Shown here: positions 2,191 to 62,831 of the stretch, piece by piece
How the letters are laid out: each line of letters starts with the position of its first letter
Numbering within the stretch: position 1 is the first letter of the stretch
Source of the DNA: Bacteroidaceae bacterium
GTDB taxonomy: Bacteria; Bacteroidota; Bacteroidia; Bacteroidales; Bacteroidaceae
Reading direction: 5' to 3'
NCBI GenBank assembly: GCA_017524545.1
Contig: JAFXVN010000041.1
Coordinates: forward strand, 36,687-100,686
DNA length: 64,000 nucleotides
Notes under the pieces: generated by a model
Told to the model about the DNA's origin: nothing
Databases searched by the model: none
Seen by the model: the letters and a program-made list of their open reading frames with translations, nothing else
Program-made: the position numbers and the translations under genes

Positions 2191-2200
2191 ACATTTGATT

Positions 2201-2888: not shown

Positions 2889-2893
2889 CAAAG

Positions 2894-3907: not shown

Positions 3908-3951
3908 AGATAAAAAGGTAAAAAGGTGAAACAATTTAACGACTATCAACT

Positions 3952-7164: not shown

Positions 7165-7206
7165 ACCGCACATCAGACAACCTCAAAATCAAAGACCAAC
7201 ATCAAA

Positions 7207-10200
7207 ATGAAGAAAAACACTTTGTCAATCTTCCTGACGCTCTGCCTTTTAGTGTTTCAACTCTTTAATGTTTTAACACTAAAAGCAGAGCCCATAGGGA
7301 AGCAGGCTGCGCTCTACACGGCACAGACCTATATGCTTGCAAAGGGCAAAACTATAGCCCCCCAACCAACCTCCCCCCAGGGAGGGAGGCTTTCAAGTGC
7401 GTCACTCTCCTCCTCCTCGGGGGAGGAGTCGGAGGAGGGGGCTTTCTACTATGTCTTCAATGCAGGAAACGATGGCGGCTATGTCATCGTCTCGGCCGAC
7501 GACCGCATAGAGCCTATCCTTGGCTATGTGGAACAGGGTTCGTTCGACCCCGACAACATCCCCGAGAACATGCGTGCATGGCTCCAAGGATGTGCCGACG
7601 ACATCAAGTTTGTTATCGATAACAACATCAGCCCCGACTCCCCTGTGCTCAAGAAGCGCAACAGGATAAGCAGGACGAAACACAGCATCCCGGAACTGCT
7701 GACGAGCCGCTGGAACCAAGGTCATCCCTACAACCTGACCTGTCCCAAATACTACAAGGGCGACGGCACGCAGGCCTACCCCGCCGCAGGCTGTGTGGCT
7801 ACGGCTATGGCGCAAGTGGTTTACCACTACAAGTTCCCCGAAAAGACGAAGGCAATCATCCCTGCCCATTCCAACAAATACAAGTTGGACGACGGTACCG
7901 AGAAGACCGTGACGGCAAAGGCTGTGCCGCGCAACACGCCCATATACTGGGATTTGATGCGCGACACCTACAACTGCAACAGTGAGCATGAGCATGATGC
8001 GGCAGACTCGGCTGTCGCCAATCTGATGCTCTATTGCGGTCAGGCCGTCAAGATGGGCTGGGGCGCATCCTCTGGTGCTGTCACTTCACGGTCGCGTGAT
8101 GTCTTCATCAACTACTTTGGCTACGACGACTGCGCATATTGGGGCGGACGTGGCGACTACTATATCGACGAGTGGTTCGACATGCTCTACGACGAACTGG
8201 ACGCTGGCTATCCAGTCCTCTATTCCGGCCACTCGTCGGGCGGCGGACATGCCTTCGTGCTGGACGGTTTCGACGGCGACAACCTCTTCCACGTCAACTG
8301 GGGCTGGGGAGGCGGCAGCAACGGATGGTTCCTCGTCAGCATCCTCAATCCGGGCGACAACAGCGGCATCGGGGCAAGCAGCAGCAGCGACGGCTACAGC
8401 ATGAGCCAAGGTGCGCTCTTCAACCTCCGCCTGCCCGACAACGTCAAGGCCGACACCTATCTCAACATCAAGGACGTGACGATTATCAACGGCACTGCCA
8501 TCAAGGCGACCTTCGAGAACAAGACGGGTGCGACGGGCAGCTACCACACCGGCATCGTCAAGCTCGAAGAAGACGGCAGCCTCACCCTCGTTGGCACCAA
8601 GCAGAACATCACGGGCATAGCAGACGGCTCTTCCCTGGCCAAGACATTCCAGCTGAAGAAGAAGCTGCCCGAAGGCACCTACAAGCTCTCGCCCGCCAGC
8701 AAGCTGACAAGAAGCGAAACGTGGCGGCCGAAGTACGACATGCGCGACGAGTACATCGAGGCTGTTGTGGGTCCCGACAGCATTCCTGTGCTGACCATCA
8801 AGCAAGCAGTTTACGACATCAGCATCGACACCATCGTCTTCCCCGGCACCCGCATCGTAGGCAAAGAGCAGGAGGTGAAGGTCACGTTCCGCAACAATGC
8901 CGACGAATACTACAAGACCATCTATCTCCTTGCCAGCAAGACACAGGAAAAGGTCTATACCGAAAGCAAGTCGATGGTTGCCATACGCAAGGGCGAGACA
9001 CTCGACGTGTCGTACTTCTTCAAGCCCGAAGAGACAGGAACCTACAACCTCTGGTTCAGCACCGACGACAAGGGCAACAATGTTATCGGCGAAGGGACGG
9101 TGGAAATCATCGAGGAAGCGGATGCCGTCAAAGCCAACCTCTCCATATCCTATTCCATCACCAACCTCGTGAACAACATTGCCTACGGCAAGCGGCTCAT
9201 CGGCAGGGCATCCGTCAAGAACAACAGCTCGCAAGAATTCCACGGAGGCATCAAGCTACAGATATGGAGCCAGAAGATTGGTAGCAACACCGCATACAGC
9301 GGCTCCACGCGCTCGTACAATATAGATATTGCTGCCGGCAAGTCGGCAAGCGTGGAGTTCGACTTCTCTGGCCTGAGCGAAGGCTACTATTATCGCTTCA
9401 AAGCGATGTACGCCAACCAAGACGGGACGCTGGCCAACGGAGGCATCTGGGACAACAAATGGGAAATGCAAGCCGGAATCCTGTCGTGGAAGAACGACGG
9501 CACCGTTACAGCCAAGGCATATAGTGTCTCCCTGACGACACTCTCCACCGTCTGCGGAGTCTATGCCGACTGCAGCAACAAAATTTCGCGCATGATGCCC
9601 AACAAGAATCCCAACACTATCTATGCCTTTGCACCCGACATGTACGTCCCCACCAGCCTCGACACGACAAATGTCGTGAGCGGCGGTCATGCCCAGCACA
9701 TCAACCTCTTTAGCGGATACCCGTACTATCTGCCCACAACCTTCGAGGCCGACAGCGCATCCTTCACCTACACCTTCCCCGAGACAGAGGCAGGCACAGG
9801 CTGGCACGCTTTCACTATGCCCTTCAAGGTGGATTCCATCTTTGTGGACAACGGCATTCCCGCTTTGCTGAGCGACAGCACCAACCACTTCTGGATATAC
9901 GAGTTCGCAGCCCAAGGCGACAACGGCGAAGTCATCTTTGCCCCAGCCACAGAACTGCGCGGAGGAACGCCGTACATCATCGCCGCAGATTCTACCATGG
10001 CAGGACGCTCCGTAGAGTTCCGTGGGATGGGTGCCACCTTCTACAAGACAGGCAGCGACAAGATGATAGTCTCCTCCCCCGACTATAAATTCTACGGCAA
10101 CACCTATTCGCCCAAGCTCAAGGACTGCTACATCCTGAATGCCGACGGGACAGCCTTCGAATATACGACGACCAACAAATCCCTGCCAGCTCTCACCGCC

Positions 10201-48449: not shown

Positions 48450-49187
48450 TCAACGGATTGCTTTCTTTGGCATTTGTTGTATAATCTTACCTTGCAGCAT
48501 TTTTCCGTTTGCATGTTTGTTTCTCTTAATGCCATCACTGCCCCATGTCCCCCATTGCTTAAAAAAGAATGCCGAACCTTGAGATTCTACTTGCTGTTTA
48601 ATGTTAACAGCCCATTCCTGTTTCATTGGTCTGGCTTTGGGTCCGCTCTCACCTCCGACTATTACCCAATCTATGCCTACGAGGTTTATATCTCCCAAAT
48701 CCTCTATCAACGGCTCGCATGACAGGAACTTAACCGAAGCATTCAAATGGCGCAGATGGTCTATTCTGTATTTTGTCGCTTGACATTCCACGGTAACACC
48801 TAACCACACGTTTCGAGGTATAGTCCGCGTTTTGAAATACTCTTCCATCCGTTCAGCGCGTTTTGTCAGGATTTGATAACGGTGTTGAGGAGTCTGTATA
48901 ATAGTATTCATTACTTCATCGACAAACTCATAAGGAACTCCCTCATGGAAGATGTCACTCATAGAGCAGACGAAGATATTATGCGATTTGTTCCATTTTA
49001 GAGGTTCTTGCAAATCGTCCTCATGCAAAGCCAGCTCAAATCCATGTTGGTATTTCTCCAACCCCATAGCCTTCAGACGTCGTGCCATCACTTCAGCATA
49101 GCAATGTGCGCAACCTGCCGACTTCTTAGTGCAACCCGTTATGGGATTCCACGTCTTGTCCGTCCATTCTATTTTAGTCGTCCTCAT
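48450..49187 (-). CDS. DUF5131 (phage Gp37/Gp68-like) three-Cys-motif protein
   Basis: 245 residues starting KIEWTDKTWNPITGCTKKSA, with three cysteines in GCTKKSAGCAHCYAE, the signature of the PF07505 Gp37/Gp68 family. This is a divergent radical-SAM-like barrel often paired with the three-Cys-motif partner TcmP. Other markers: FVCSMSDIFHEGVP, RYQILTKRAERM, VIVGGESGPKARPM. The start overlaps the end of the decayed tcmP (ATGA). The pair is frequent in phages and defence islands and its function is unknown. AT-richer than the neighbouring core genes. Confidence 0.88.
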   Translation of the reverse strand: MRTTKIEWTDKTWNPITGCTKKSAGCAHCYAEVMARRLKAMGLEKYQHGFELALHEDDLQEPLKWNKSHNIFVCSMSDIFHEGVPYEFVDEVMNTIIQTPQHRYQILTKRAERMEEYFKTRTIPRNVWLGVTVECQATKYRIDHLRHLNASVKFLSCEPLIEDLGDINLVGIDWVIVGGESGPKARPMKQEWAVNIKQQVESQGSAFFFKQWGTWGSDGIKRNKHANGKMLQGKIIQQMPKKAIR

Positions 49188-49578
49188 AATCCTCGTTTCT
49201 TCTTAATAATCTGACTCGCAATCTTAATTGCAGTTTGATTGTTTGATGCACATGCGAAGTGAAAAATTGGTGTGTTCCTTGTATTGTACAACACCAATGG
49301 TTTTTCGGTTACATAACCAAATATCGTTTTAAGCTGTTCTATATACAGTTCCGCAATCTTCTCAATGGGTTTCTTCACTTTCTCTATGATTTCCGTTTCA
49401 CCAAACAGCGTATCGAGTTTCTTTTTCTTATAAAAATAGTCTTTCAAGAAGTCCTCATCTTTTCCAAAGAAAGATGTCAACCTTTCGGCATGAGTGAGTT
49501 CACACTTCCGCCCCAAGATGATGATTCACAAGCCATCAATCCGCCTTGTTCTTCTATGTGATTATATGTTTCGCTCAT
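49184..49578 (-). pseudogene. tcmP: Decayed three-Cys-motif partner gene (tcmP remnant)
   Basis: The promoter-proximal frame (ATG 49578) reads MSETYNHIEEQGGLMACESS and stops after 33 codons. A second frame from about 49525 reads the carboxy-terminal portion (HAERLTSFFGKDEDFLKDYF ... TPIFHFACASNNQTAIKIAS), which matches the end of TcmP (P-x-YHL-x-FAS-like). TcmP is normally about 250-300 residues, so the central catalytic-like part is missing. A deletion plus frame change is the simplest explanation. Its partner DUF5131 gene is intact. Confidence 0.6.
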
Positions 49579-50373: not shown

Positions 50374-50575
50374 CCCAAGATGCTTCTCTATTCACGACAA
50401 GGAGCTGGGAAACATTGCCGTGACCGTGAATGCGCGGTCACGACAATTTGTCTTACGCTACAAAGACGGTCGTACAGTTCAACCAGTCATTCCTCCCTAC
50501 GGGAACAGCGACCGCTGGTTCATCTTCTGTCAGGCCATAGAGCTGATAGACAAGGTGGTCGATTTCTGCTTCTAA
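50366..50575 (+). pseudogene. Fragment resembling the amino-terminal domain of a DUF45 metallopeptidase
   Basis: An open frame immediately after the truncated GHL10 copy reads FSIHDKELGNIAVTVNARSR then QFVLRYKDGRTVQPVIPP, like the beta domain that precedes HELTH in YgjP-type proteins. After this it runs into unrelated residues and stops. As the intact GHL10 copy 2 is also followed by a DUF45 gene, the duplicated unit probably spanned both genes and was truncated at each end. No convincing start codon. Confidence 0.4.
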
Positions 50576-50612
50576 CGCGGAAGTGTCTGTGTTATAATTG
50601 ATTTGTTTTTAC

Positions 50613-50708
50613 TTCAGGCCGCTCCACGAATCATCCGTCAGCTTGTGCTCGATGATGTAGTCGCGAAGTCTCGTCCGCCAGACCTTGTTCTACAAGAAAT
50701 ACTTCATC
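50613..50708 (-). pseudogene. Short relic with an in-frame nonsense codon
   Basis: On the minus strand the sequence reads MKYFL, a TAG, then NKVWRTRLRDYIIEHKLTDD and SWSGLK before a normal stop. One changed base (AAG to TAG) would give a 32-residue protein. No family recognised; it may be the 3' end of a lost gene. Confidence 0.3.
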
Positions 50709-50737
50709 ATTCATAGTGTTATTCCAAGAAAAAGCCG

Positions 50738-50745
50738 TACCTTTG
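50738..50745 (+). promoter_or_regulatory. -7 box TACCTTTG abutting the orphan nuclease start
   Basis: AAAAGCCGTACCTTTGCATC ends directly before ATG 50750; only 4 nt separate the box and the start codon. Confidence 0.6.
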
Positions 50746-50749
50746 CATC

Positions 50750-51235
50750 ATGGAATTGGATAAAGACTTCATTGTAGACGAAATATACGGAGGCAGACTG
50801 CTCATCAGCGTCAGGGCAGACCAACGAGAGTTGGCCAGCAATATCCGCGCAGCTCGTGCCATCCTCAATTCTTTTCCTGACACATATATCATTATCAACG
50901 CCCACACGATAGAACTTGGTCACAAAAACCCCGAATATACTATCGATAGTCATCTTGGCGACCGCAAGGGGATTATGTCGGAAAAAGGAGTGACGGCCGG
51001 TTTCAAGTCAGCAAAGAAACAAGGTTGCAAGATTGTGGTAATCGATTTGGACGAACACATCTGGCAGGTACGGCCCTTTGAACTTTCTAAATACATCTCA
51101 CGCAGGAAGGCTGATTTTGTGAATGGCTTGATGGAGGCTTGTTATATAGTTTTCGATGGTGAAGCCGTAGTCGTGAATGCAAAAGACCAGACTCGTCGGG
51201 AGATAGAATCCATTATAGAAGAATTAAAGCCGTAG
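50750..51235 (+). CDS. CdiA-CT-like (BECR-fold) predicted nuclease domain protein
   Basis: 161 residues, no signal peptide. The layout YGGRLLISVRADQRELASNI ... AARAILNSFPDTYIIINAH ... IDSHLGDRKGI ... AKKQGCKIVVIDLDEHIW resembles the tRNA-nuclease toxin domain found at the ends of CdiA and phage MuF proteins (GG-R-x-S start, central D-x-K, QGC-x-VV core). Here it stands alone with its own promoter and a terminator. No immunity gene is obvious next to it. Confidence in the fold is moderate; activity is inference. Confidence 0.6.
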   Translation: MELDKDFIVDEIYGGRLLISVRADQRELASNIRAARAILNSFPDTYIIINAHTIELGHKNPEYTIDSHLGDRKGIMSEKGVTAGFKSAKKQGCKIVVIDLDEHIWQVRPFELSKYISRRKADFVNGLMEACYIVFDGEAVVVNAKDQTRREIESIIEELKP

Positions 51236-51254
51236 GTACTCGACCCACGGCTTT
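51226..51254 (+). terminator. Hairpin overlapping the stop of the orphan nuclease
   Basis: AAAGCCGT and ACGGCTTT pair across a 13-nt loop in which GG and CC can extend the stem. The stop codon lies within the left arm region. An AT-rich tail follows. Confidence 0.55.
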
Positions 51255-51562
51255 AAATAAATCGACGGTTGCGGAGCTTGATGTTATCGCGCCTATATGC
51301 AACTCTCATCTGGGTGCAAAAGTACAGACTTATTTCCTATCTCCCAAACATTTCCGACATTATTTTCCGAAACATGCCGATTTTGCTATTCATTGTTTGC
51401 AAGATCATCCATCTTACATCTTTCTATTTCGCATAATAAACCCCGAAAGTTTTTGTCTAACTTTCGGGGTTCACTTCACAATTAGGCACATCCTCTTTTT
51501 CTTTTTCTTAGTTATTACCTTCTACAATTTTTATTTGCTTTACTCCCAATAGCATCATTTAC
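51236..51562. other. 327-bp gap between convergent units: terminators only
   Basis: The gap separates the orphan nuclease from the end of the minus-strand cassette. Apart from the two hairpins it contains no open frame with recognisable features. Confidence 0.5.
51439..51471. terminator. Strong hairpin terminator at the end of the 51.6-59.9 kb cassette
   Basis: AACCCCGAAAGT and ACTTTCGGGGTT form a perfect 12-bp stem with a 9-nt T-rich loop. It lies about 90 nt past the last cassette gene and can act on both strands. Confidence 0.75.
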
Positions 51563-51745
51563 TTATTCTGGTTTCCTCTCCTCTGTCTTAAGTCCAAGGT
51601 GATAGTAGTCGGAGATGCGCTTGAGATCTTCAGCTTTTGTTCCATTGCTGATGTTCGAGTAGATATACCAGCCATCGCATTCGTGTTGCCAGATGCGACC
51701 TGGCCTCAGCCTGTCAAGCCATAAAGAGGATGATTCAGGAAACAT
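51563..51745 (-). CDS. Small protein, last gene of the cassette
   Basis: 60 residues (MFPESSSLWLDRLRPGRIWQ ... GWYIYSNISNG ... ISDYYHLGLKTEERK). It starts 6 nt after the stop of the 485-residue gene, so it is very likely co-translated. No family recognised; the short aromatic-rich fold could be a partner or regulatory subunit, but that is speculation. Confidence 0.55.
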   Translation of the reverse strand: MFPESSSLWLDRLRPGRIWQHECDGWYIYSNISNGTKAEDLKRISDYYHLGLKTEERKPE

Positions 51746-51751
51746 TTGATG

Positions 51752-53209
51752 TCACTCTCTGTCGCTTGGTGTCTTAACACTTTCTGATAATAATTTCCTG
51801 AATTTGGAAAAGCCTTCTTCATCGGACAAAAGTCCAAACAAGTCGTTGTCTATTATAGCGCAAGAGTAATTATTTTCGATATAGTCGTAAGTCGGTTCAA
51901 TTTCTCCCGAATCCCCACAAGTATTCCAATCTTTAGGAATCAAGGTCCAGAACGATTCGTCGCCCATAAAGTAGAATGGAATGGCGATGTTGAAAGAAGA
52001 TGCTGTTCCCATAATGTCCAGACAGACATCGGCAAACTCCATAAGAAGTTCATCACTCAACGTGATTTCATTCGACCTTATAGTTCCCTTTTGGACAAGA
52101 TTTCCTATTGCTATCAACAACAAAGCTTTTTGAACAACACATGTATTGTAATTCTTTCGTTCTCTCATAGACACAAAGAGCCTTGAGTATTTCCCAAGTG
52201 GTGATTCTTCTTTTTGGGGAGCGACATTCCTCATCTTCTTCTTTGCAGCTTTGCCTTTAGCGGATTTGGCATCATAGAAATGCATACCATAATCTTCAAG
52301 ATAAGCCATCAGGTCGATAAACATCTTCTTTCTCTTGTCCTTGTGCTTTTCATAACATTCCAATTGTGAATTGAACCATGCTGCCAATTCCGGCTCGTCC
52401 TCCTGAGCAGGCAACTCCAGATTCTCGTCAACATACCATTTCACTTGGTCGCAATTCCTTTTGTAAGAGTATTCAAACGGAGTAAACATCCACTGGTCGT
52501 ATTCTTTCAGGTATTGTTGAAAGGTTGCACGCAGACCTGCCAATTCCTTTGCTGTACTTTTGGTGAAATCAAGATACCATCTGTATAGGCTTTCTTCTGC
52601 TTCAAGACCGTGAGATTGTGGCGAACGGTGTTTTTCCTCCATAAACGTCAGGAACTCCATGATGCGTTGCTCGGCATATTGTATCTTCTTCTTTTCGATG
52701 CTGTAAATGTGGAATCGTTTATCATATTCTTTTGCTTTCAAACCAACATAGCCATCAAGAAAGAAAACGAACCTACCCTGAGGGTCGCCATTAAGGTTAG
52801 CACGAATACTTCCAATGTAGGTTTCTGGAAGATAACACTTAATTTTCTGTAGCAAATCCTCCAGCTTGATCGGTGTTGGTGATTGCTCCAACAGGTGTTC
52901 TGTATAGTCCCCAACCTTAAAGGTTCTTTTATTGAACTTCTTTTCATCGATTCTTTTGGGTTTCGGCTTGGCGTTGACAGAAGCCACAAACTCAGGAAGA
53001 ATACTGTCAAGTTCCTCAATATCCGAGATGGCTTTGAGAAGTTCATCTTTCAACTTATGGGACTTCTCGATATAGTCAACCTTTATCCCGTCATTAGACA
53101 GTTCTATCATGTCTTTAGACGTGGAACAGCCAAGAATCACAAGCACTCGTTTAAGCTGTTGTGAAATAACGCCTATGTCGGAAAGTTGTTTTAAAGTGTA
53201 CTCCTTCAT
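51752..53209 (-). CDS. HARE-HTH-like cassette protein with a restriction-associated-looking carboxy domain
   Basis: 485 residues. The amino part is helical/coiled (HKLKDELLKAISDIEELDSI). About 110-160 has a winged-helix pattern like HARE-HTH (PIKLEDLLQKIKCYLPETYI then GDPQGRFVFFLDGYVGL). A Lys-rich linker precedes a carboxy domain (about 345-480) with VQKALLLIAIGNLVQKGTIR, IPFYFMGDESFWTLIP and CAIIDNDLFGLLSDEEG. This K-x-LLL-A-I-x-x-L / PF-x-x-x-x-x-x-FW-x-L pattern resembles modules before HNH nucleases in restriction enzymes. No HNH motif is visible, so it may read DNA rather than cut it. Overlaps the radical SAM gene by 4 nt. Confidence 0.65.
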   Translation of the reverse strand: MKEYTLKQLSDIGVISQQLKRVLVILGCSTSKDMIELSNDGIKVDYIEKSHKLKDELLKAISDIEELDSILPEFVASVNAKPKPKRIDEKKFNKRTFKVGDYTEHLLEQSPTPIKLEDLLQKIKCYLPETYIGSIRANLNGDPQGRFVFFLDGYVGLKAKEYDKRFHIYSIEKKKIQYAEQRIMEFLTFMEEKHRSPQSHGLEAEESLYRWYLDFTKSTAKELAGLRATFQQYLKEYDQWMFTPFEYSYKRNCDQVKWYVDENLELPAQEDEPELAAWFNSQLECYEKHKDKRKKMFIDLMAYLEDYGMHFYDAKSAKGKAAKKKMRNVAPQKEESPLGKYSRLFVSMRERKNYNTCVVQKALLLIAIGNLVQKGTIRSNEITLSDELLMEFADVCLDIMGTASSFNIAIPFYFMGDESFWTLIPKDWNTCGDSGEIEPTYDYIENNYSCAIIDNDLFGLLSDEEGFSKFRKLLSESVKTPSDRE

Positions 53210-55173
53210 CTCTGCATTTCTTGGTCAAATTCTTTCTTTAGTTCGTACAAATCTCGTCCCTCTGTAATGATGTCGTCTCTAAAGTCAACATAGTATCTCA
53301 GGAGTCTTTTGATGACAGGCTCTTCGAAATCATCCACAATAGTCGCATTAAACACATTGGTATGAATAACCTCACATACATCATTCCATCTTTCTTCGGA
53401 AACAGAAGCCTTGCATTCTTTCCATGCATTCCGCCAATGATTCGTTCCAATACCAACATCCTTCTTATTGTCTAACCATTTGAAGAAAAATCGGTAAATG
53501 ATAAAAGTCTCAGGCATTTCAAGCAAGTCCATATACTCATCCTCGTCTTTACCAAAGGCCTCGCAAAAGAACGAATGCCCTCTGCCTATTTTGCCCTTGG
53601 TACTATTAAGGATAGCCTGAACTGCTCTTATGTATTTTCTGTTCCAATACTTCCCAATATAATCCCTGTTGTGAGAAAAGTCCTCAGCATCACCCTCTTT
53701 TTTCCGCAGAGGATGGTATTTCATGGGGAATGAGTAGATGCTAATATTAAGCTCCTCGCATAGGTCAACATTTATCTTCATCCTCTGATACAATTCTACA
53801 GGCTTGTCGTTGAAATTGTATAGAAGATAGTTTGAAAAGTCATTCATTCCGGCAGCAACGCTCAACCTTATGGCTTTTTCGTATGCAGGTCTTGTTCTAA
53901 TGTCATCGAATGCAATTCTTAGTGGCCTTATTGCAATACGCGACAATAGCTCCACATTTTTCTCATTAAACAATCGAGCGTCAACACCTTGATTGAAATC
54001 AACATAGCGAATTTTGGGAGTGGGCTTGAAGTGTTTCGCATATATATCCTTTATTTCTTCGTATGCTTCCAACAGGGCGTCTTTCCGTGTAGTAAGAAAT
54101 TTCAAGATATGGTATTTGGATAATATCTTATAGACCTGATACGATTCTTCCCCTTTCAGCCTGTCATAGAAAGCCATGATTAAGGAGTGAGCCTTGCGTA
54201 TATAAGCCCTGTCGTTTACATTATTCCTCAGATTACGTATGGCAATCGCCAACAAGTCTGGCTGGGTGAATTTTGCGCCTCTTTCAAACCCGCAATCGAT
54301 GATATCTTGAATGATGTGAGGAAGTTCTTCTGATGCCAACACATTGTTGTCCATCAGCAGCATGTTCTGCTGTTCGCCATATAGCTCTCGTATACGTTCA
54401 ATACGTTCTTTCAGGGGAATGTAACTGTTGTATATCGGCTCCAATATGGGTACGGCGCAGAAGGAACAATGACGGATACATCCTCTTGTTGTGTAACCAT
54501 AGTATGCATTCGTCATGGGATACTTGTATTCTATTTCGTCAAGAATGGAGTAATCCAAAGGCAATTCGTCAATCATCTGGGTATCGCCTTTGTCTAAATC
54601 GCCTGCTTTCAGAATGCCGACGTGGGGTCTGATGCCCGTTGCCTCCTCTATTTCCTTAGGCTGTATAGAAGCCAATACGCCTCCAACCATTAAGTCTTTA
54701 GGCTTCTTGACGAGTAGCTTTGCAAATTCTATCGTCTCTATGGTTGTTTTCCAGTAGAAGGTAAACAGAGTGGTTACAAAAACTCTGTCCCACTCTGGAT
54801 ACTTCTTCCAAGTTCCCTTCCAATAGAAATCCTTGAAATCGATAGCAACAGAGCGCAGTTCTTCGCTTTGGGGTGACAATTCAGTTCCGATAGCATCAAG
54901 CGCAGTTCCTTTTCTTGTCTTGATGTATTCAAAGATGTAGTCTTTTCTAATATACCAGTCTTGGGTTTTGTCAATCTTGTTAAATGCAGCAATACATTTG
55001 TCTGCTATTTGTTCTATTATGAATTGCTTTAAGTCACCCTTATAGAACAAAACATCCCAGTTGCCAAGATTCTTGTGGTAGGTGGCAATCTTCATCAGTC
55101 CAATTGGCGGGAACTTGTTGCTGTAATTGGGCTCTATCAATAGTGCTTTATATCGCTTCTTAGGCCTTGCCAT
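53206..55173 (-). CDS. Radical SAM protein of the cassette
   Basis: 655 residues. The cluster motif CxxxCxxC is in TTRGCIRHCSFCAVP (about 233-247). It is preceded by a B12-binding-like Rossmann region starting LLIEPNYSNKFPPIGLMKIA, though no DxHxxG cobalamin motif is obvious. The SAM barrel continues (MLLMDNNVLASEELPHIIQD, FNQGVDARLFNEKNVELLS), and a long helical carboxy-terminal region of about 200 residues has no recognised domain. Radical SAM enzymes usually modify nucleic acids, peptides or metabolites; the substrate here is unknown. The start and stop each overlap the neighbouring cassette genes. Confidence 0.85.
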   Translation of the reverse strand: MARPKKRYKALLIEPNYSNKFPPIGLMKIATYHKNLGNWDVLFYKGDLKQFIIEQIADKCIAAFNKIDKTQDWYIRKDYIFEYIKTRKGTALDAIGTELSPQSEELRSVAIDFKDFYWKGTWKKYPEWDRVFVTTLFTFYWKTTIETIEFAKLLVKKPKDLMVGGVLASIQPKEIEEATGIRPHVGILKAGDLDKGDTQMIDELPLDYSILDEIEYKYPMTNAYYGYTTRGCIRHCSFCAVPILEPIYNSYIPLKERIERIRELYGEQQNMLLMDNNVLASEELPHIIQDIIDCGFERGAKFTQPDLLAIAIRNLRNNVNDRAYIRKAHSLIMAFYDRLKGEESYQVYKILSKYHILKFLTTRKDALLEAYEEIKDIYAKHFKPTPKIRYVDFNQGVDARLFNEKNVELLSRIAIRPLRIAFDDIRTRPAYEKAIRLSVAAGMNDFSNYLLYNFNDKPVELYQRMKINVDLCEELNISIYSFPMKYHPLRKKEGDAEDFSHNRDYIGKYWNRKYIRAVQAILNSTKGKIGRGHSFFCEAFGKDEDEYMDLLEMPETFIIYRFFFKWLDNKKDVGIGTNHWRNAWKECKASVSEERWNDVCEVIHTNVFNATIVDDFEEPVIKRLLRYYVDFRDDIITEGRDLYELKKEFDQEMQR

Positions 55174-56723
55174 TATCTTAGAGCTTTAATAGTATCGGCA
55201 ATCAACTTCTCAAGCGTTGCCTTATTGTCTGATTCCCACTTCCTTCGGAGTATTGCAAAGATTTTACGTATGACCTTTATACTTTCTACGCTGTATTTGT
55301 CCGACAATACGGAGAGTTCATCAGAAGCAACAATTTTAACTGTTGGTTTGTCCTTTTTCGTTTTCTCTGCTGGTGTTTCCCCACCATTCTCTTGTATCTC
55401 TTTAGATTTGTTCTGATAGTATTCCACAAGAGGAGTTCCGGCAGAAGAGGAAGCAATTTCTTTTCCCGAAGTACGCTCTATCGTTGCCAATGCCTTTTCG
55501 ACTTCCCCTTTTGCCTGAACCTTATCGACATCTTTATTGTCGGAGTTCACTTTGGAAACGCCCACATTCAGGTCGCGTACTGCTCTTTTTAGTTCGCTGG
55601 CCATATAATAAATCTGGCGCATCTCTGTAAACTTCTCTCTCAACAGGTCGTAGAGACGGATTGCCTCATGTGTAGAAGCAAGCCCTTGTCTGGTGCTGTC
55701 GGGGACGATGTCAGCACTTACTACATGTATCTCACCATAGAAATAGTGGTTCCCTCGTGCCTCGTGAAAGTATTTGTCAAGGAGTTTTGCATCGCCTATT
55801 TGGATATTATTCTTGCGTAGTCTTATACCTCGGTTGGGTTCAAACTCGTCATTTACTTTTTCTGGAATCTCCTTAGAGAAAGGCGTAATTGCATACCATC
55901 CCCAGGCTAATTCTTCTTCTTCATCTTTTAGATGGAATATCTCAATACCTAATATCTCATCACCAGTTCCAATTACAGTTTTTCCGTAATTTTTCTTTAT
56001 TGGCTTGTTATTGACGCTCACATTTACATACTTCATTCTTGAGTATAGTTCCTTGAACTCCTCATTCTTTGAAATCAGAAGATTCTTGAAGGGCATGGAA
56101 TAATCAATGGGGGCAACTGCCGAGAGATACGACATAATTTCATCAGCTGAAAGAAGTTCGTCATAACCTTCCTTGATATTCTCCAAAGTCACCTCAAAGA
56201 AATGGTCGTCGCTATCCGTGATACGGCGCACTTCTGATATTTCAGACATAACCGTAACAGCATCACTACGATTGTTCTTGTCTCTGATAATGCTTCTCGC
56301 AAGGTCTGAATTGATTGCTACTTCAGTACCTTCTTTCTCCCCTGATGCTTTTGTGCGGAAAACCAAACGAGAACAGAAACCGGCACCAACAAGTCGGCCA
56401 ACTCCATACTGCCCGGCTTGAACATAGCCATCCTTTTCTGAAGCTGCTATATTAAGTAAAGCCGATGGCGCTTTTTCAAGCGATATGCCTGTACCATTGT
56501 CTCTGATTGTGACAGTTCTGTGTTTCGGGTCAACAGCAACATTCACAATTCCATTATTAACATTCGGTAGGAGATTCTTTGTTACAGCCTCTTGGATTGC
56601 ATCGAAAGAGTTCTGGATATACTCTCGGTAGATGACTTTACATTCGTCATACATATTGAACATCAACATTTCAATGATGTTCTTACCAAAAACTGGCTTG
56701 GGGGTCTTTGTTGAATTATCCAT
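55173..56723 (-). CDS. GHKL (Hsp90/MORC-like) ATPase of the cassette
   Basis: 516 residues. The Bergerat fold is clear: YREYIQNSFDAIQEA (N-box), TIRDNGTGISLEKAP (G1), and DGYVQAGQYGVGRLVGAGFC (G2 lid). A transducer-like region follows (EPNRGIRLRKNNIQIGDAKL), then a coiled-coil and a helical carboxy terminus (about 390-516). It resembles HtpG-related ATPases found in defence loci rather than a sensor kinase, as no receiver or DHp part is present. It overlaps the HerA-like gene by 8 nt and shares one base with the radical SAM gene start. Confidence 0.85.
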   Translation of the reverse strand: MDNSTKTPKPVFGKNIIEMLMFNMYDECKVIYREYIQNSFDAIQEAVTKNLLPNVNNGIVNVAVDPKHRTVTIRDNGTGISLEKAPSALLNIAASEKDGYVQAGQYGVGRLVGAGFCSRLVFRTKASGEKEGTEVAINSDLARSIIRDKNNRSDAVTVMSEISEVRRITDSDDHFFEVTLENIKEGYDELLSADEIMSYLSAVAPIDYSMPFKNLLISKNEEFKELYSRMKYVNVSVNNKPIKKNYGKTVIGTGDEILGIEIFHLKDEEEELAWGWYAITPFSKEIPEKVNDEFEPNRGIRLRKNNIQIGDAKLLDKYFHEARGNHYFYGEIHVVSADIVPDSTRQGLASTHEAIRLYDLLREKFTEMRQIYYMASELKRAVRDLNVGVSKVNSDNKDVDKVQAKGEVEKALATIERTSGKEIASSSAGTPLVEYYQNKSKEIQENGGETPAEKTKKDKPTVKIVASDELSVLSDKYSVESIKVIRKIFAILRRKWESDNKATLEKLIADTIKALR

Positions 56724-58383
56724 TAGGGAATTGTTTATAGGTTGGACGAGGGAATCTTACATTTACCAACGAACGTAACGCGGGATTAGAGATAATATAT
56801 TCGCCAGGACTTAGGCGTGTCATCATGTTCTGATAAGTTTTAGGAATATAACGATAGTCGGGCTTTGATACCTCTATGGCGTTAGTTCTTCCGTAGGCTG
56901 CTGTGGCACAGTTTCCTTTCACCCGGTCGTGGATAGCACTACGGAACTGCTCCACAGAGAACAGAATGATGCCAAGTGATCGTCCACGTTCAGCTATATC
57001 AAGCAGTTGTTTCAGAATAGGAGAGTTCTTAGGAACGTCGTTCGACGCATACTTATTCAACTCATCAACAAACATAATGACCTTATGGGGAATGTTGTCC
57101 CTCTCTGCACCAAGCTTCAAATCGTAAATAGCTCTTGCCACACTACCGAACACGAAGCTTTGTGTGTTTTCGTCAAGGCGGGCGATATCAATTACCATCA
57201 CCTGATTCTTCTTCAAGTTTTGGCTAATCTCATCGCAGATGTCAACTTCGCTGTTGCTCAAAATATCTTTGGCAAAAACGTCGTTGTTGATAGCCTTGCC
57301 TATACAACGCTTGAATTTTCGCCAACTGGTAATCATGATTTCATTCTTTGTGCCACCATTGGTACCAGTCTTTGTACATTTATCAATGGCTTCTTGAAAA
57401 GTTGACCATTTATTAATACCGTGAAAATCGCCTTCATGGTTAATGATGTAGTTGACACAACTTTCCATTGTTCCGCTGCTGTCATCTTCGTTTGCTAGCA
57501 GAAGATCAAGTTTATCCTGGCATTTGTCAAATACGAACTTGTAGGTTTTTGCCTTACCCTTTGTCATCTGAATCTTGATGTCACTCGGAGCTGCATACGA
57601 CTGTGTTCGAGCCGTCAACTGGTCTTTGCCGTAAGGATAATAGTATGTTACGTTTTCAAATGGTGTGGGATTCAGCCCAAGTTTGTCGGTATAGATTTCT
57701 TTATCCTCATCCGACAGGCCGACATTTGCCTCGTCAATAGCCATAAGGTCTCGTCCTTTGACATTGAAGAAGACGAAGGCTACACTTTCATTGTCATCAC
57801 TACGGAACTTCTGTTGAATGGCACGGAGCAAGAACATAGAATACGAAGTTTTTGCTGCCAAGCCAGAAATGCCTGAAACATTCATGTGCGCTCCATCAGG
57901 GCCAATCAGGAAATGGGTATCTAAAACGACTTTCACCTTTATGGCTTCTTCTCCTTTGTACATCTGAAGATATCCGCATACAAGGGGATTCTTGACATCC
58001 TCATCACTTAAACCCAAAGCAGCCTTTATGTCATCTGGGTTGCATAATGACACCTGCCTGTCATTAAGCACAGGAGTGTAGATACCCTTTGTGTTGTGGG
58101 TTACGCTGCATTTCACGTAGTTCATTCCGAGACGGTTCATATTGCCTATGTTTGGAGCAATGTCACCGAAGTCGCTTGATATGTAACTTGTAAAATGGCT
58201 GGGAGCATCTGTCACATGACTGATTTCTTCTATAACACCGTAAGTGACAGAATCTCCTTCGTGTTGGACCTTTACAATGTCAAACGGACTGAGGATTTGT
58301 TTCTTGTCAGTCCAAAAAAAGAAGTTGTCTATCGTTGACGGACATTTCTCTGTTGCTGACACCTTACCTATAATCTTTTCCAT
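56716..58383 (-). CDS. HerA-like (FtsK/HerA superfamily) ATPase of the cassette
   Basis: 555 residues. An amino-terminal HAS-barrel (SPFDIVKVQHEGDSVTYGVI) is followed by a P-loop region at about 172-185 (MNVSGISGLAAKTSYSMFLL). The P-loop is unusual: the Gly before Lys is Ala (GLAAKTS rather than GSGKS). Walker B is KVIMFVDELNKYA; LLDIAERGRSLGIILFSVEQ and YRYIPKTYQNMMTRLSPGEY match later HerA motifs. HerA-type hexamers pump duplex DNA and usually work with NurA nucleases; a NurA-like protein is encoded 4 nt upstream. Confidence 0.85.
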   Translation of the reverse strand: MEKIIGKVSATEKCPSTIDNFFFWTDKKQILSPFDIVKVQHEGDSVTYGVIEEISHVTDAPSHFTSYISSDFGDIAPNIGNMNRLGMNYVKCSVTHNTKGIYTPVLNDRQVSLCNPDDIKAALGLSDEDVKNPLVCGYLQMYKGEEAIKVKVVLDTHFLIGPDGAHMNVSGISGLAAKTSYSMFLLRAIQQKFRSDDNESVAFVFFNVKGRDLMAIDEANVGLSDEDKEIYTDKLGLNPTPFENVTYYYPYGKDQLTARTQSYAAPSDIKIQMTKGKAKTYKFVFDKCQDKLDLLLANEDDSSGTMESCVNYIINHEGDFHGINKWSTFQEAIDKCTKTGTNGGTKNEIMITSWRKFKRCIGKAINNDVFAKDILSNSEVDICDEISQNLKKNQVMVIDIARLDENTQSFVFGSVARAIYDLKLGAERDNIPHKVIMFVDELNKYASNDVPKNSPILKQLLDIAERGRSLGIILFSVEQFRSAIHDRVKGNCATAAYGRTNAIEVSKPDYRYIPKTYQNMMTRLSPGEYIISNPALRSLVNVRFPRPTYKQFPNG

Positions 58384-58387
58384 ATTC

Positions 58388-59566
58388 TTAGAATATTTTG
58401 TATATTACTTCTTTGTCTAAATACTGGGATTTGCAGAATGATTCTGTAAGATAAACGGGATACAAATGATTTGCCCATCTGGCATCATTGCCATAGCACA
58501 CAGGAAATGCTTCCCTTATAAGATTTGCTGATATAATGTCTATGATTTCCGTGTCAATCATAGCCCCTTTGTCGTCAAGAACCATTTCGCATTTCACTAT
58601 ATCTGATACTGGAGTTTCACGGAAATCGCTATTCCTAAGGCGCAAGTACCACACAGCATAATAACTCTGTGAGTATTCCGATTGATACTCATAGACTTTT
58701 GTCCTCTCGAATGGTTTTAGGTTTGAAATGGTCTTTGATAGCCTGTTACCCTCAAAGTCGTTCATCAACTCTGGGTCAAAACGCTTTGAAACACCTACTA
58801 CATGTCTGTAATTTTGATGCAGAAGGGCAAACTCTGTAGAACTCATGTTCGAGTATCTGGGATTGTAGTCGATAGAACCGTCTTTTATCAGGAAATGTTC
58901 GTCGTCGAGCAAGTGACGTTTACAAAGTTCCTTTACAACCAATTGCTCCGAGTCTGTCATCTCGTTCTGAATGAGAGCCTGAGCACGACTTCTGTATTTG
59001 TCTTTACCTTTCAGCAAGTCATCGTGGCCGTCCGTCTTGTATAGCAGCATTTGATTCAACTTGATATTGTGTTCTTTGAGAAATGGAACCTTTTCCATTT
59101 CCATGTTGATTTTTTCACAATAAAGTCTACAGAAGTTACCACCTTTGTTTTCATCGTCAAGGTCGAAGTCATCAGGCATGGCAATAACAATCTTGTTTTC
59201 AACCACCAGCTTTTTGAATATATCCCTTGAAGGACGTTGACAACATCCTACGATGATTTGTCCTGCCAGAACAGGGTAAATCTTTCGCCCGATAGCGATA
59301 TCATCAATCTTGTATATATGACGGGAACCATCAAGAAAATAGAAAAAGATAGGGGTCGTTGCCTCTATATATTCATCGCTTATTCTGATAGTTCTCACCC
59401 TGCTTTGGTTGGATTCAGCAAAAGGACTTTTAGCTATCTGAGTGGCGGGCTTGTCATCATAGTCAAGGGTCTCTGGGAGATTTTCGTCCAGAGACATCTT
59501 CTTGGTATGATAGAGGGTGTATTTGCCGCTGCCCTGTTCTTGGATATAGTCAAGTATCTTGCCCAT
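58388..59566 (-). CDS. NurA-like nuclease-domain protein of the cassette
   Basis: 392 residues. PIFFYFLDGSRHIYKIDDIA contains the DGS(R) motif that marks the first metal ligand of NurA nucleases. The carboxy terminus (IDIISANLIREAFPVCYGND then ARWANHLYPVYLTESFCKSQ) fits the family's final conserved His/Tyr-Pro segment. Its position immediately before a HerA-like ATPase gene supports the assignment. NurA-HerA pairs resect DNA ends in archaea and recur in bacterial defence loci. Assignment is by motif and context, not by a full-length match. Confidence 0.65.
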   Translation of the reverse strand: MGKILDYIQEQGSGKYTLYHTKKMSLDENLPETLDYDDKPATQIAKSPFAESNQSRVRTIRISDEYIEATTPIFFYFLDGSRHIYKIDDIAIGRKIYPVLAGQIIVGCCQRPSRDIFKKLVVENKIVIAMPDDFDLDDENKGGNFCRLYCEKINMEMEKVPFLKEHNIKLNQMLLYKTDGHDDLLKGKDKYRSRAQALIQNEMTDSEQLVVKELCKRHLLDDEHFLIKDGSIDYNPRYSNMSSTEFALLHQNYRHVVGVSKRFDPELMNDFEGNRLSKTISNLKPFERTKVYEYQSEYSQSYYAVWYLRLRNSDFRETPVSDIVKCEMVLDDKGAMIDTEIIDIISANLIREAFPVCYGNDARWANHLYPVYLTESFCKSQYLDKEVIYKIF

Positions 59567-59598
59567 TGTTATCTAATGTTATTAGTTCTCGGGGGTTA

Positions 59599-59865
59599 TT
59601 AGCATACAGACGACTGGTAGTAGTCCCTGTTCAGACAAATAAGATAATTGTCACCTATTAAAACAAGTACATCAGTTTTTGGAACTGACCAGTCTAACAA
59701 CTCGTCGAATCCCATATCTGCAACCTCCTCGCGTTTTACCTCGCGCCATCCTTCTGTTTGAGCGAGCATTTCTAGCATTTTGGCGGTATCCTCTTCAACT
59801 AAATCTATCAAGCATCCCCATTCTTCATACATTCCACCTGTGGGTATGGATAAATGTCTCTTCAT
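59599..59865 (-). CDS. Small protein, first gene of the cassette
   Basis: 88 residues, mixed alpha/beta (MKRHLSIPTGGMYEEWGCLI ... VPKTDVLVLIGDNYLICLNR). It is acidic, starts the cassette, and is separated from the NurA-like gene by 32 nt. No family recognised. A position at the head of an operon with a long structured leader would suit a regulator or a target-mimicking partner, but nothing in the sequence proves either. Confidence 0.6.
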   Translation of the reverse strand: MKRHLSIPTGGMYEEWGCLIDLVEEDTAKMLEMLAQTEGWREVKREEVADMGFDELLDWSVPKTDVLVLIGDNYLICLNRDYYQSSVC

Positions 59866-60073
59866 ATTGACAAACCGATTTTAGGGCATCGGCCAGCAAC
59901 TATTTGTCTGACTGATACCCAAGCGTCAGGGGATTATTAACATTCAGAGGTCAACAAAGCAAAAAACGAGGGTATCTCCTGCTGCTCGTTCTGACATTTA
60001 GGCCGTAGGAATTGCCCTCTCAATAGAACGAACAGATATGATACCCTCGGGAGTATATATACTATGCACCAAA

Positions 60074-60109
60074 AGTGTGCGTGAGGGCATAGAAAGCCCT
60101 CGGCACACT
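60074..60109. ncRNA. Strong hairpin in the cassette leader (possible structured RNA)
   Basis: AGTGTGC pairs with GCACACT and GAGGGC with GCCCTC, with a 7-nt loop and one asymmetric bulge, making 13 base pairs. There is no T run, so a terminator is less likely. It may be part of a leader RNA, a small RNA or a protein-binding site. Confidence 0.35.
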
Positions 60110-60297
60110 CCGGCTGCGCATAATATACACATCCGTAGGCGTCACCTCTGCGTTTGTCTTTGATTGAGATTTGAGTTTCCTACGTTCAAATGTCCAAAAA
60201 CAAAGCGTTAGTGTCGCTTTTCACAATGTAGTAATCTGCTCTATTGGCTCCGTCTTCCACTGATGACATCACAGCCGTTAATAGGCAGATTCTTCCG

Positions 60298-60305
60298 CAA
60301 AAGTA
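60298..60305 (-). promoter_or_regulatory. Candidate -7 box TACTTTTG for the cassette
   Basis: The only TAnnTTTG match found on the minus strand in the gap upstream of the first cassette gene. No -33 element is visible, so this is tentative. Confidence 0.3.
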
Positions 60306-60458
60306 CGAAGAAAAAGTGAAAAGTGAAAAGCGAAAAGTGAAAAATTAAACGAAGAGAGGAAAATAAGCGTGAAAAGAGAAAATATCATCCCTATTTTGTG
60401 GGTTGCATTTATCCGATTTTTGTGAAAAGGCCTGCCGTAGAATAGAATAGTACATTTT

Positions 60459-60764
60459 TCACCACAGATACTCTTCGACGTAATCGTCGAAGACGGGCTG
60501 TTGCTGCCAGCCGAAGGCGCGGAGGTTTTGGCGAATTCGCAAGTCGGTGAGGCGATCAATAGTTTTATGCACCAACTTCTCCACCTCGTTATATTTCATG
60601 GTCTTCATTGTGGCGAAAATCTCAAAAGGCAAGGGAACAGCAGTATTATCCAGTTCCTTATTTCTCACATCCATTGGACGCGAACTCTTGCCAATCTTCA
60701 CCCAATCCTCGCGGAAGCTGGGGTTTGTCAGAATGTAAACGTAGCCAGGTTCTTTGTTGCTCAT
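60459..60764 (-). CDS. Chimeric T5orf172 (GIY-YIG-like) / DUF6078-tail protein
   Basis: 101 residues. Residues 1-78 are a T5orf172/MUG113 domain (PGYVYILTNPSFREDWVKIG ... YNEVEKLVHKTIDRLTDLRI), a GIY-YIG-related fold. Right after IRQN the sequence becomes AFGWQQQPVFDDYVEEYLW, nearly the same as the end of the DUF6078 protein at 62323 (DFGWQQQPAFDDYIEEYLL). The normal end of the T5orf172 domain is missing. The gene seems to be a deletion fusion of a T5orf172 gene to a DUF6078 gene at a short IRQ-coding homology. Whether it is functional is unknown. Confidence 0.65.
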   Translation of the reverse strand: MSNKEPGYVYILTNPSFREDWVKIGKSSRPMDVRNKELDNTAVPLPFEIFATMKTMKYNEVEKLVHKTIDRLTDLRIRQNLRAFGWQQQPVFDDYVEEYLW

Positions 60765-60783
60765 ATTGTTTCAAATGTTTATG

Positions 60784-61980
60784 TCAATACATTAATCCTA
60801 CTATCCAGAGGGGTAATTTCTTGCCAACGGGGAATTCCATTGAATCAGCAAGGATGTAAGAGTTGGGGATGTCTGCTATCTGGTCGAAGGTCTTGTCTTG
60901 CCCTCCGACTTCTATGGTGATTTTGCCGTCAATCAGAAAGTCACCTTGCGTTTTGCCGTATTCTACAGTGTGGCTTACTGATAACTGATTGACCGCAAAG
61001 CACTCTCTTTGTGTACCGACATTCAGGTTTGAGCCCAGCGCACAGAGCATATTAGGATTGTGCAGATATATCTTGTCGGGTTTCTGCATCTTGGTCACCG
61101 ACTTATTATCTGCATAGAGCAGATGCAGCAATTCGGCTCTCTGCATGCTTGACAGATAGCTTAGAACCGTTGTTTTGTTAAGTTCCAGATACGATGAGAG
61201 CTTTGCGATGCTTACATCGTAAGGCTGATTGTTGGCTAAGAAGAGTAACATGGCTTTGAGCTTGCGGGTATAGGCCGGATCAACGCCGCAGAACTGGGTC
61301 ATTTCCTGATCGATAATAAAACTCACCACGTTCTCTATGCGGCTATAGTATTCTTGCTCATTGCCATCGTAGAAAGGATAGTAGCCCACACGCAGATATT
61401 CTTCAAACAAAGCCTGGGGATGGCACACCTTGCAAACTTCTTCGCAAACGGCATCGGCATCCTCCAGCACTTCATCCAGTGTGTGTACAGGAAGTTCGAT
61501 ATTCTTATAAAATCTGAGGTATTCGCGGAATGAAAGCCCCGCCATATCATAGCTGAGCACCCTGCGCGAGAGGTCGGCATCAGCATTCAGAATCTGAAGG
61601 AGTGACGAGCCTGTAAACGTAATCTTCATGTCGGGCCACAGGTCGATTATCTCTTTGAGTTCCTTGCTCCATGTGGGATATTTATGCACTTCGTCGAGGA
61701 AGAGGTGCTTGCCGCCCATCAGATGGAAGCGATCTGCAATTTCCAGAAGCGTGTGGTTAGTAAAAAACATGCTGTCCATCAGGCAGTAGAGTGCCTCGCC
61801 AGCATTTACGCCATACTTTTGCTTAATATATTGGCGCACGAGTGTTGTCTTTCCCACACCACGTGATCCTCGTATAGATACGAGTTGTTTTTCCCAATTT
61901 ACGGATTTCATCATCTCGCGGACAATCTTTGTGCTTGTCTGCGATATCAATATACGATGTTTCTTAAATAGCGTCTCCAT
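60784..61980 (-). CDS. AAA ATPase with DUF4143-type carboxy terminus
   Basis: 398 residues. Walker A IRGSRGVGKTTLVRQYI (about 37-53), Walker B HLFLDEVHKYPTWSKEL, sensor TFTGSSLLQIL, then GLSFREYLRF and a carboxy-terminal winged-helix/nuclease-like region (SSYLELNKTTVLSYLSSMQR, KTQGDFLIDGKITIEVGGQD). This is the common ATPase family (AAA_14/DUF4143) widespread in accessory DNA of gut bacteria; roles in stress or mobile-element control are suspected but unproven. It has its own promoter and lies between T5orf172/DUF6078 fragments, so it may have inserted there. Confidence 0.88.
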   Translation of the reverse strand: METLFKKHRILISQTSTKIVREMMKSVNWEKQLVSIRGSRGVGKTTLVRQYIKQKYGVNAGEALYCLMDSMFFTNHTLLEIADRFHLMGGKHLFLDEVHKYPTWSKELKEIIDLWPDMKITFTGSSLLQILNADADLSRRVLSYDMAGLSFREYLRFYKNIELPVHTLDEVLEDADAVCEEVCKVCHPQALFEEYLRVGYYPFYDGNEQEYYSRIENVVSFIIDQEMTQFCGVDPAYTRKLKAMLLFLANNQPYDVSIAKLSSYLELNKTTVLSYLSSMQRAELLHLLYADNKSVTKMQKPDKIYLHNPNMLCALGSNLNVGTQRECFAVNQLSVSHTVEYGKTQGDFLIDGKITIEVGGQDKTFDQIADIPNSYILADSMEFPVGKKLPLWIVGLMY

Positions 61981-62007
61981 AATGATGACCTTATATCTTT
62001 ATGGCTG

Positions 62008-62322: not shown

Positions 62323-62784
62323 CTACAACAGGTACTCTTCTATGTAGTCGTCGAAGGCGGGCTGCTGCTGCCAGCCGAAGTCGAGGAGGGTCTGGCGGAT
62401 GATTTGCTCGACGTCGGGGGTGATGGGGCGGCGGCCACAGTGGTAGTCGTAGTAGCGGCGACGGGAGAAGAGGGCGATGAGGCGCTGCTTGATATCGCGT
62501 GCCAGTCGGCTGGGGATGTCGTCGTACATCTTACTGATTCCGAGGGGCATGCGGAGGGGTTCGCTGGGACAATACTGTGGGCAGTCTTCGCCCTGCATCT
62601 TTGGGTTCCTGAGGTTGACGACAGTCACGACAGGGTAATTTTCTGGGACATAGTCTTTCAGGATGGTGCGCAGGCAATGTTCGCGCCTGGGGCAGCTTTG
62701 GCTTTGGCAGACAGCACCTTTTGTTACAAATCCTCGGAAAAGGTCATCTCTTGTCATTTGTGCTTCGCGATTATAGAACCTCAT
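62323..62784 (-). CDS. DUF6078 family protein
   Basis: About 153 residues (start MRFYNREAQMTRD; an ATG three codons upstream is possible). Cysteines at GAVCQSQSCPRREHCLRTIL and GEDCPQYCPSE suggest a metal site. The rest is helical, ending in LDFGWQQQPAFDDYIEEYLL. DUF6078 proteins are restricted to Bacteroidota and are uncharacterised. The promoter TACCTTTG lies 48 nt upstream. Confidence 0.75.
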   Translation of the reverse strand: MRFYNREAQMTRDDLFRGFVTKGAVCQSQSCPRREHCLRTILKDYVPENYPVVTVVNLRNPKMQGEDCPQYCPSEPLRMPLGISKMYDDIPSRLARDIKQRLIALFSRRRYYDYHCGRRPITPDVEQIIRQTLLDFGWQQQPAFDDYIEEYLL

Positions 62785-62831
62785 AAATATCAATCAAGAT
62801 TTATATAAAAGATGGTTTGTATTTTGTGATG

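Follow-up and report, generated by a model that had tools for sequence, protein, structure and literature searches.

Within the window analysed here, a 64,000-nucleotide stretch of contig JAFXVN010000041.1 from a Bacteroidaceae bacterium, we identified what sequence comparison indicates to be a conserved unit of four genes in the fixed order NurA-HerA-GHKL-radical SAM. We read this cassette as a horizontally acquired, DNA-directed defence system of restriction-modification-like character, and give this reading slightly less than an even chance. The observations behind it are the four-gene unit and its conservation, its patchiness, the active-site motifs and folds of its proteins, and a swap for a methyltransferase at two loci. 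The features of the locus are as follows, in window coordinates:

59599..59865, minus strand: optional ORF, 88 aa; relatives in L036 and L073 (best 80 of 544 loci)
58388..59566, minus strand: NurA-type nuclease, 392 aa, core gene 1
56716..58383, minus strand: HerA-type DNA translocase, 555 aa, core gene 2 (profile match and invariant motifs)
55173..56723, minus strand: GHKL (HSP90-like) ATPase, 516 aa, core gene 3 (Pfam, HtpG profile, invariant residues)
53206..55173, minus strand: radical SAM enzyme with an N-terminal B12-binding-like Rossmann domain, 655 aa, core gene 4
51752..53209, minus strand: accessory protein, 485 aa; family at 22/80 loci (best 80 of 544)
51563..51745, minus strand: ORF of 60 aa, probably outside the unit; no relative found, and outside the block shared with L036
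51925..60232, no strand: block common to the window and L036 (Prevotella UBA3757, the nearest relative), from blastn

All seven ORFs in the ORF list of the window lie on the minus strand at the coordinates of the preliminary description, which had noted their short overlaps and gaps; the intergenic spacings, in order, are 32, 4, -8, -1, -4, and 6 nt. That description had also called the stretch AT-richer than the core genome and bordered by gene fragments, and both points hold: GC content is 41.3% in the seven-ORF stretch versus 53.0% in window bases 1-48000, and one flanking ORF has a match limited to a short part of GHL10, while another combines T5orf172 with a DUF6078 tail at its end. Blastn aligns the window with L036 at 74.8% nucleotide identity over 8366 columns (51925-60232) and gives no second match beyond this block at E 1e-5, and the block probably approximates the transferable unit. 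No Rfam match to a non-coding RNA reached the gathering score in 50500-62000.

The genes had been expected to be conserved together and in order as a seven-gene system, and this stands for the four core genes, all present at 70/80 loci recovered with the radical SAM query (genome_contigs, best 80 of 544 confirmed loci). With 13 of the 80 loci set aside for having less than 5.2 kb upstream, the four genes occur at 65 of the 67 loci with enough upstream sequence (best 80 of 544). The two exceptions are L104, with GHKL-radical SAM and no NurA-HerA, and L102, where the other core genes are absent and the radical SAM gene is fused in frame to response-regulator-like sequence, perhaps through misassembly. 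In the draft assembly containing L243, NurA is retained, radical SAM occurs as two separate ORFs, and a stop lies within the HerA match. Neighbours lie within 60 nt of each other at 69/70 NurA-HerA, 68/71 HerA-GHKL, and 67/74 GHKL-radical SAM junctions (best 80 of 544 loci); such close spacing, with a constant order for four of the seven genes, is more than chance. The order persists down to 47% radical SAM identity, including contigs labelled Ignavibacteria and Aminicenantes, and is kept in viral contigs at a HerA identity of 38-39%. Flanking ORFs differ between loci that keep the cassette order. Intact relatives occur in the cultured commensals Phocaeicola barnesiae (L042) and Parabacteroides faecalis (L096). 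With HerA as query, we observe the full cassette in 12 of 16 other genomes, two of the remaining four being cut by contig ends, and in 4/5 viral contigs; these genomes seem to overlap the radical SAM-centred set (G349=L107, G437=L085, G718=L114, G597=L105, and G090=L054).

A seven-gene unit was rejected: the core comprises four genes, and the 88-aa, 60-aa, and 485-aa ORFs are accessory or unrelated. Relatives of the 88-aa ORF occur at 2/80 loci, and comparison with ORFs of 50 aa or longer at these loci gave none for the 60-aa ORF (both best 80 of 544); the latter falls outside the shared block, since the window-L036 identity spans 51925-60232. Members of the 485-aa family carry RNA polymerase alpha-CTD (17/20), sigma-70 region 4 (14/20), and HARE-HTH (2/20) domains, the first two in the longer members and without a match in the short protein of the window. 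HARE-HTH had been proposed as a key domain of this protein, a proposal we withdrew, as no HARE match appears in it at E up to 1.

The assignments of NurA, HerA, GHKL, and radical SAM made earlier from sequence are borne out by profile and structure comparisons. The motor, HerA, is of the ring translocase type, and the nuclease, NurA, has an RNase H fold. The window HerA, single copy in its own genome, matches Deinococcus radiodurans HerA (7f6d_B) with an E value of 2.2e-57 and the Walker A stretch aligned, and its residues K178-T179-S180 and D440-E441 are invariant in an alignment of 24 sequences. A NurA-fold nuclease is encoded in the same operon, and motor and nuclease together match the Deinococcus HerA-NurA complex, the closest solved complex. 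By these family features, HerA and NurA are predicted to form a motor-nuclease complex with nuclease activity.

A HerA tree of 33 hand-chosen tips, rooted on SbcCD-linked HerAs, places the GHKL-radical SAM-linked sequences in a 25-tip clade (support, 0.999) apart from the SbcCD-linked ones. Sister to it is a pair from L219 and L232 (pair, 0.997; joint clade, 0.98), where NurA-HerA lies beside an Eco57I-like protein (Pfam 1.2e-11 in L219; 40% identity between the two) and no GHKL or radical SAM was matched in the stretches read. At these two loci an Eco57I-like DNA methyltransferase takes the position of the GHKL-radical SAM pair, and the swap suggests that the pair may include a self-protecting DNA modification enzyme. 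The comparison connects one motor-nuclease family with three or more sets of partners, among them SbcCD, an Eco57I-like methyltransferase, and GHKL-radical SAM.

The GHKL protein matches Pfam HATPase_c_3 (2e-10) and, by profile search, HtpG (E 4.8e-13), and residues E34, N38, D75, G79, G104, G107, and G109 are invariant in an alignment of 21 sequences (the GHKL tree used 49/99 sequences). Among the assignments of window proteins it alone lies above the Pfam cut-off, the radical SAM match being sub-threshold. The radical SAM protein is predicted with a pLDDT of 94, and fold comparison shows a B12-binding-type architecture as in AprD4, MgmA, TsrM, and MiaB. Its C232-C236-C239 motif (CxxxCxxC) is invariant in 78 sequences, in agreement with the fold matches, and is absent from 2/153 relatives, L103 (with an unread residue at the site) and L150. 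The DxHxxG motif expected for cobalamin binding does not appear in the conserved N-terminal columns of the alignment; to our knowledge, AprD4 and MiaB do not use cobalamin.

The cassette is patchy, being found in 6/395, 6/395, and 9/393 sampled genomes (own genome included), with cassette HerA in approximately 2%; this patchiness leads us to reject a housekeeping role, which the preliminary description had named as one alternative. In the relatives search, the 31/101 matches were mostly short, generic radical SAM matches; besides G000, only G090 and G076 were near full-length, and G050 held radical SAM remnants alone. A first viral scan with a single radical SAM sequence gave no relative; the viral radical SAM set used here is the best 80 of 438 loci. 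No full cassette was found in 72,556 plasmid records, where the six HerA matches were all below 30% identity (the Nonomuraea and Nostoc records among them lack usable annotation) and none of 12 radical SAM matches covered 80%. The cassette was probably acquired horizontally and would move between genomes. Defence matches account for approximately 12/100 flank proteins versus approximately 2/55 background proteins among the matches listed, where the flank figure takes matches to five listed systems as different proteins, 25 of 100 flank and 25 of 27 background families are listed, families not in these VIA-align lists may still be present, and the 55 background proteins come from one genome. 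From 420 eligible flank proteins, 110 were drawn and 100 used, the ten closest to stretch ends being left out; the flanking defence genes are only suggestive.

In viral-collection contigs and in plasmids of alphaproteobacteria, relatives of the radical SAM enzyme adjoin genes of the DndB/DpdB-like, ParB-like, and SNF2 types. In phage contigs, distant relatives follow ParB-like genes near large terminases (read by eye), which suggests that some phages may bear the product of the enzyme. A DNA methyltransferase beside the phage radical SAM gene (cluster c4) was considered and rejected, the neighbour being ParB-like in the examples read; the misreading arose because single linkage had merged ParB-like proteins with methyltransferases.

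From this genomic context, Menshen-like genes inside some cassettes included, we infer that the cassette acts against phages or plasmids. NurA and the HerA ring translocase would together make up a motor-nuclease through which incoming DNA is threaded and broken down, the radical SAM enzyme would mark or license DNA and so spare the host's own, and the GHKL ATPase may serve as its ATP-driven clamp or switch. Weighing against this reading are the core proteins, in which we saw no DNA-recognition domain, the restriction of the methyltransferase swap to two loci, the damaged cassette at L243, L104 with its GHKL-radical SAM pair alone, and the plasmid records, where a full cassette was not found. 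We tentatively raise, as a possible though doubtful extension, restriction-modification-like immunity of a new class: a GHKL-gated or -clamped B12-type radical SAM enzyme would install a novel mark on host DNA, NurA-HerA would destroy DNA without it, and orphan radical SAM-ParB pairs of phages would copy it for protection. If the enzyme does modify DNA, this would be a new DNA modification chemistry and would account for the so far unassigned radical SAM genes beside ParB-like genes in phages.

Among the fold relatives of the enzyme are some whose substrates are small molecules, peptides, or RNA, which counts against DNA modification and gives some weight to a rather unlikely alternative: a defence system whose radical SAM enzyme has a non-DNA target. 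The enzyme would synthesise or change a nucleotide signal, a peptide, or a protein partner (GHKL or HerA, for instance), which in turn would activate NurA-HerA during infection, with GHKL as the sensor. At the inspected loci, GHKL does occur whenever radical SAM lies with NurA-HerA, the stretch examined from Marinitoga camini virus 1 being the exception. However, DNA is indicated by the ParB/DndB-like neighbours and by the methyltransferase swap, and clustering of ORFs of 50 aa or longer brought out no conserved small gene. Less probable still is a role in repair or DNA-end processing on mobile or accessory DNA rather than in immunity, with NurA-HerA resecting ends and the radical SAM enzyme repairing lesions. 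The Deinococcus complex would fit this, as would the SbcD and SbcC-like genes that adjoin distant HerA relatives (L227, read by eye), but the cassette contains no SbcCD, its HerAs form a separate clade (NurA, GHKL, and radical SAM being the window neighbours), and it is rare among sampled genomes, sometimes with Menshen-like genes inserted. Reversed polarity, as in type IV restriction, with GHKL-radical SAM recognising or altering modified phage DNA for NurA-HerA to destroy, would suit the phage contigs with ParB-like genes and terminases; it is improbable, as no base-reader domain was identified in the four core proteins and an enzyme would be an odd reader. Finally, unrelated neighbours kept together by chance or linkage are a general possibility, sampled genomes being mostly Bacteroidota, which the order held at such low identities, across phyla labels and viral contigs, and between differing flanks makes very improbable.

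The preliminary description knew of no named system with this gene set, and we likewise find none in PADLOC 2.0 or in the portions of the literature available to us. Recognition as a known system by PADLOC was rejected, as window proteins give weak matches only (HerA: mad8, 1.7e-5, and HerA models from 2.3e-5; DpdC and CARF3 near 0.004). The closest known system is Tdp (TdpC and TdpAB), a phosphorothioate-based defence whose TdpAB shares the NurA fold with the cassette nuclease; the cassette differs in its radical SAM and GHKL partners, and its HerA profile does not match TdpA up to E 10. The Deinococcus-type end-resection complex is the closest solved relative of the motor-nuclease, whereas the cassette is patchy, GHKL-radical SAM-linked, and separate in its HerA clade. 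The L219 and L232 loci, for which we know of no name, resemble it in NurA, a sister-clade HerA, and an occupied partner slot, which holds an Eco57I-like protein; they differ in that neither GHKL nor radical SAM was matched in the stretches read. For Menshen, which we take to be the NsnABC system, an embedded AAA_15 and 273-aa pair at L114 matches NsnB (1.4e-63) and NsnC (4e-9), and cluster-mates of this pair lie inside 5/80 cassettes (best 80 of 544); most cassettes lack them, including that of the window, whose seven proteins give no PADLOC match to NsnA, NsnB, or NsnC at E up to 1. DndB/DpdB-like proteins adjoin radical SAM relatives in alphaproteobacterial elements, and of Dnd/Dpd core components PADLOC finds in the window only the weak DpdC match, 22 residues long. 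HerA-type motor-nuclease defence is already known, none being found with a radical SAM enzyme as conserved partner. SIR2-HerA and HerA-DUF4297 are defence systems that couple a HerA motor to an effector, and, as far as the accounts of them available to us extend, the cassette shares this plan, with NurA as the effector and two extra conserved partners.

The window carries a patchily distributed unit of four genes, in which the motifs of the motor, nuclease, GHKL, and radical SAM proteins are conserved. It lies within seven minus-strand ORFs that are present at 51563 to 59865, as the preliminary description held, and that are both tightly packed (spacings of 32, 4, -8, -1, -4, and 6 nt) and AT-rich (41.3% GC versus 53.0% over window bases 1 to 48000). 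A radical SAM profile search of named genomes gave at least 544 confirmed relatives, of which we kept the best 80 of 544. The proposed seven-gene unit recurs in kept order for NurA, HerA, GHKL, and radical SAM, all found at 70 of the 80 kept loci and at 65 of the 67 whose upstream sequence exceeds 5.2 kb, but not for the other three genes. Because the 485-aa family recurs at 22 of these best 80 of at least 544 loci, relatives of the 88-aa ORF at 2, and none of the 60-aa ORF at any, we treat the system as four genes and these ORFs as putative accessories. Core genes abut across the kept loci (median spacing 1, 1, and -4 nt), whose MAG labels are chiefly Bacteroidota, with some Ignavibacteria, Aminicenantes, Victivallales, Gastranaerophilales, and Clostridia. 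At one contig (L102:9335-11959), a radical SAM ORF minus its first residues is fused in frame to response-regulator-like sequence, perhaps through misassembly or recombination.

HerA profile matches were found in 6/395 class, 6/395 phylum, and 9/393 order genomes, own genome counted each time. All 16 distinct other genomes were examined, some overlapping the radical SAM sample, and 12 hold NurA, HerA, a GHKL, and radical SAM; among these, in L243 the radical SAM gene is split and the sole GHKL is of the second type, and in L244 a 428-aa ORF interrupts HerA. Contig ends follow HerA-GHKL-radical SAM in L241 and NurA-HerA in L245, while divergent locus L227 has SbcC- and SbcD-like genes (by eye) and a NurA near that of Deinococcus (4.4e-25). 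Four of five viral contigs with HerA relatives carry the full cassette, and an 8.9 kb fecal “bacteriophage” record also holds the four core genes; neither HerA nor radical SAM searches found the full cassette in the plasmid collection.

An Eco57I-like protein adjoins NurA-HerA in L219, the last of the 16 genomes (1998-8007; 1,076 aa), and in the fifth viral contig, L232 (3349-10997; 1,127 aa). The two proteins are 40% identical, L232 has an extra 411-aa ORF, DNA methyltransferase-like by eye, and these loci look like a second unnamed NurA-HerA system. In a HerA tree of 33 chosen tips, rooted on SbcCD-linked HerAs, the 25 GHKL-radical SAM HerAs form a single clade (support 0.999), sister to the two methyltransferase-linked HerAs (joint clade 0.98); all 28 non-SbcCD tips cluster at 0.944.

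GHKL-radical SAM also occurs without NurA-HerA, in the stretches examined, on alphaproteobacterial plasmids and viral-collection contigs, accompanied by ParB-like, SNF2, and DndB/DpdB-like genes. Some plasmids add a PIN_8 protein and a second GHKL, again with no NurA-HerA in the stretches examined. Two alphaproteobacterial plasmid clusters (L003:2789-14578 and L004:2800-14636) encode a helicase, a ParB N-terminal protein, a DGQHR protein, radical SAM, and GHKL, together with a PIN-like protein and another GHKL, and are possibly another unnamed defense system. In phage contigs, a shorter radical SAM gene directly follows a ParB-like gene near large terminases (identified by eye). This pair, with its ParB-like gene of cluster c4, is seen in most of viral contigs L139, L141-L147, and L154, and may modify DNA. 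Marinitoga camini virus 1 has NurA-HerA and a radical SAM gene on opposite strands, with no GHKL within the 16.8 kb stretch examined. In viral contigs L129:8300-12600 and L134:8342-12588, radical SAM is flanked by a second radical SAM and a gene of weak RAMP/Csa2 likeness (L129 by scan, L134 by eye).

The methyltransferase swap (two loci), the DndB- and ParB-like neighbors, and the orphan genes in phages suggest a DNA-marking role for the radical SAM enzyme; NurA-HerA would then degrade DNA without the mark, with GHKL as a putative clamp or gate. In Tdp systems, DNA is marked and DNA without the mark is degraded, the logic proposed here. Five of the 80 kept cassettes (best 80 of at least 544) have an embedded gene pair, which in L114 resembles NsnB and NsnC of Menshen. 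Context supports a defense system, and defense-gene enrichment in the flanks is no more than suggestive.

The preliminary description knew of no named system with its seven-gene set, and PADLOC 2.0 gave weak matches at most for window proteins. The open-access literature searched for radical SAM with HerA, NurA, or GHKL, and parts of PMC12977600, PMC10853773, PMC4158269, PMC7159879, and PMC11229311, gave no description of the four-gene set; NurA and GHKL go without mention in the part of PMC10853773 covered. As far as PADLOC 2.0 and this literature reach, the four-gene set is unnamed.

The window derives from a 3.6 Mb draft genome. Its closest radical SAM relative among the best 80 of at least 544 (87%) lies in a Prevotella MAG (L036), and the source is accordingly assigned to Bacteroidota. 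Since nucleotide identity with L036 is confined to 51925-60232, with the rest of the window unmatched, about 8.3 kb seems to move between genomes as one block. Adjoining the cassette, a DUF5131 gene (Pfam, 1.6e-106) is followed by a 110-aa ORF without a Pfam match (48450-49516). A 161-aa ORF (50750-51235) weakly matches a CdiA C-terminal domain of contact-dependent inhibition (2.2e-4, under the curated cutoff). A T5orf172 ORF (60459-60764) has a tail like the end of DUF6078, with a fuller DUF6078 gene about 1.6 kb off (62323-62793), and looks like a chimera or a duplicated tail.
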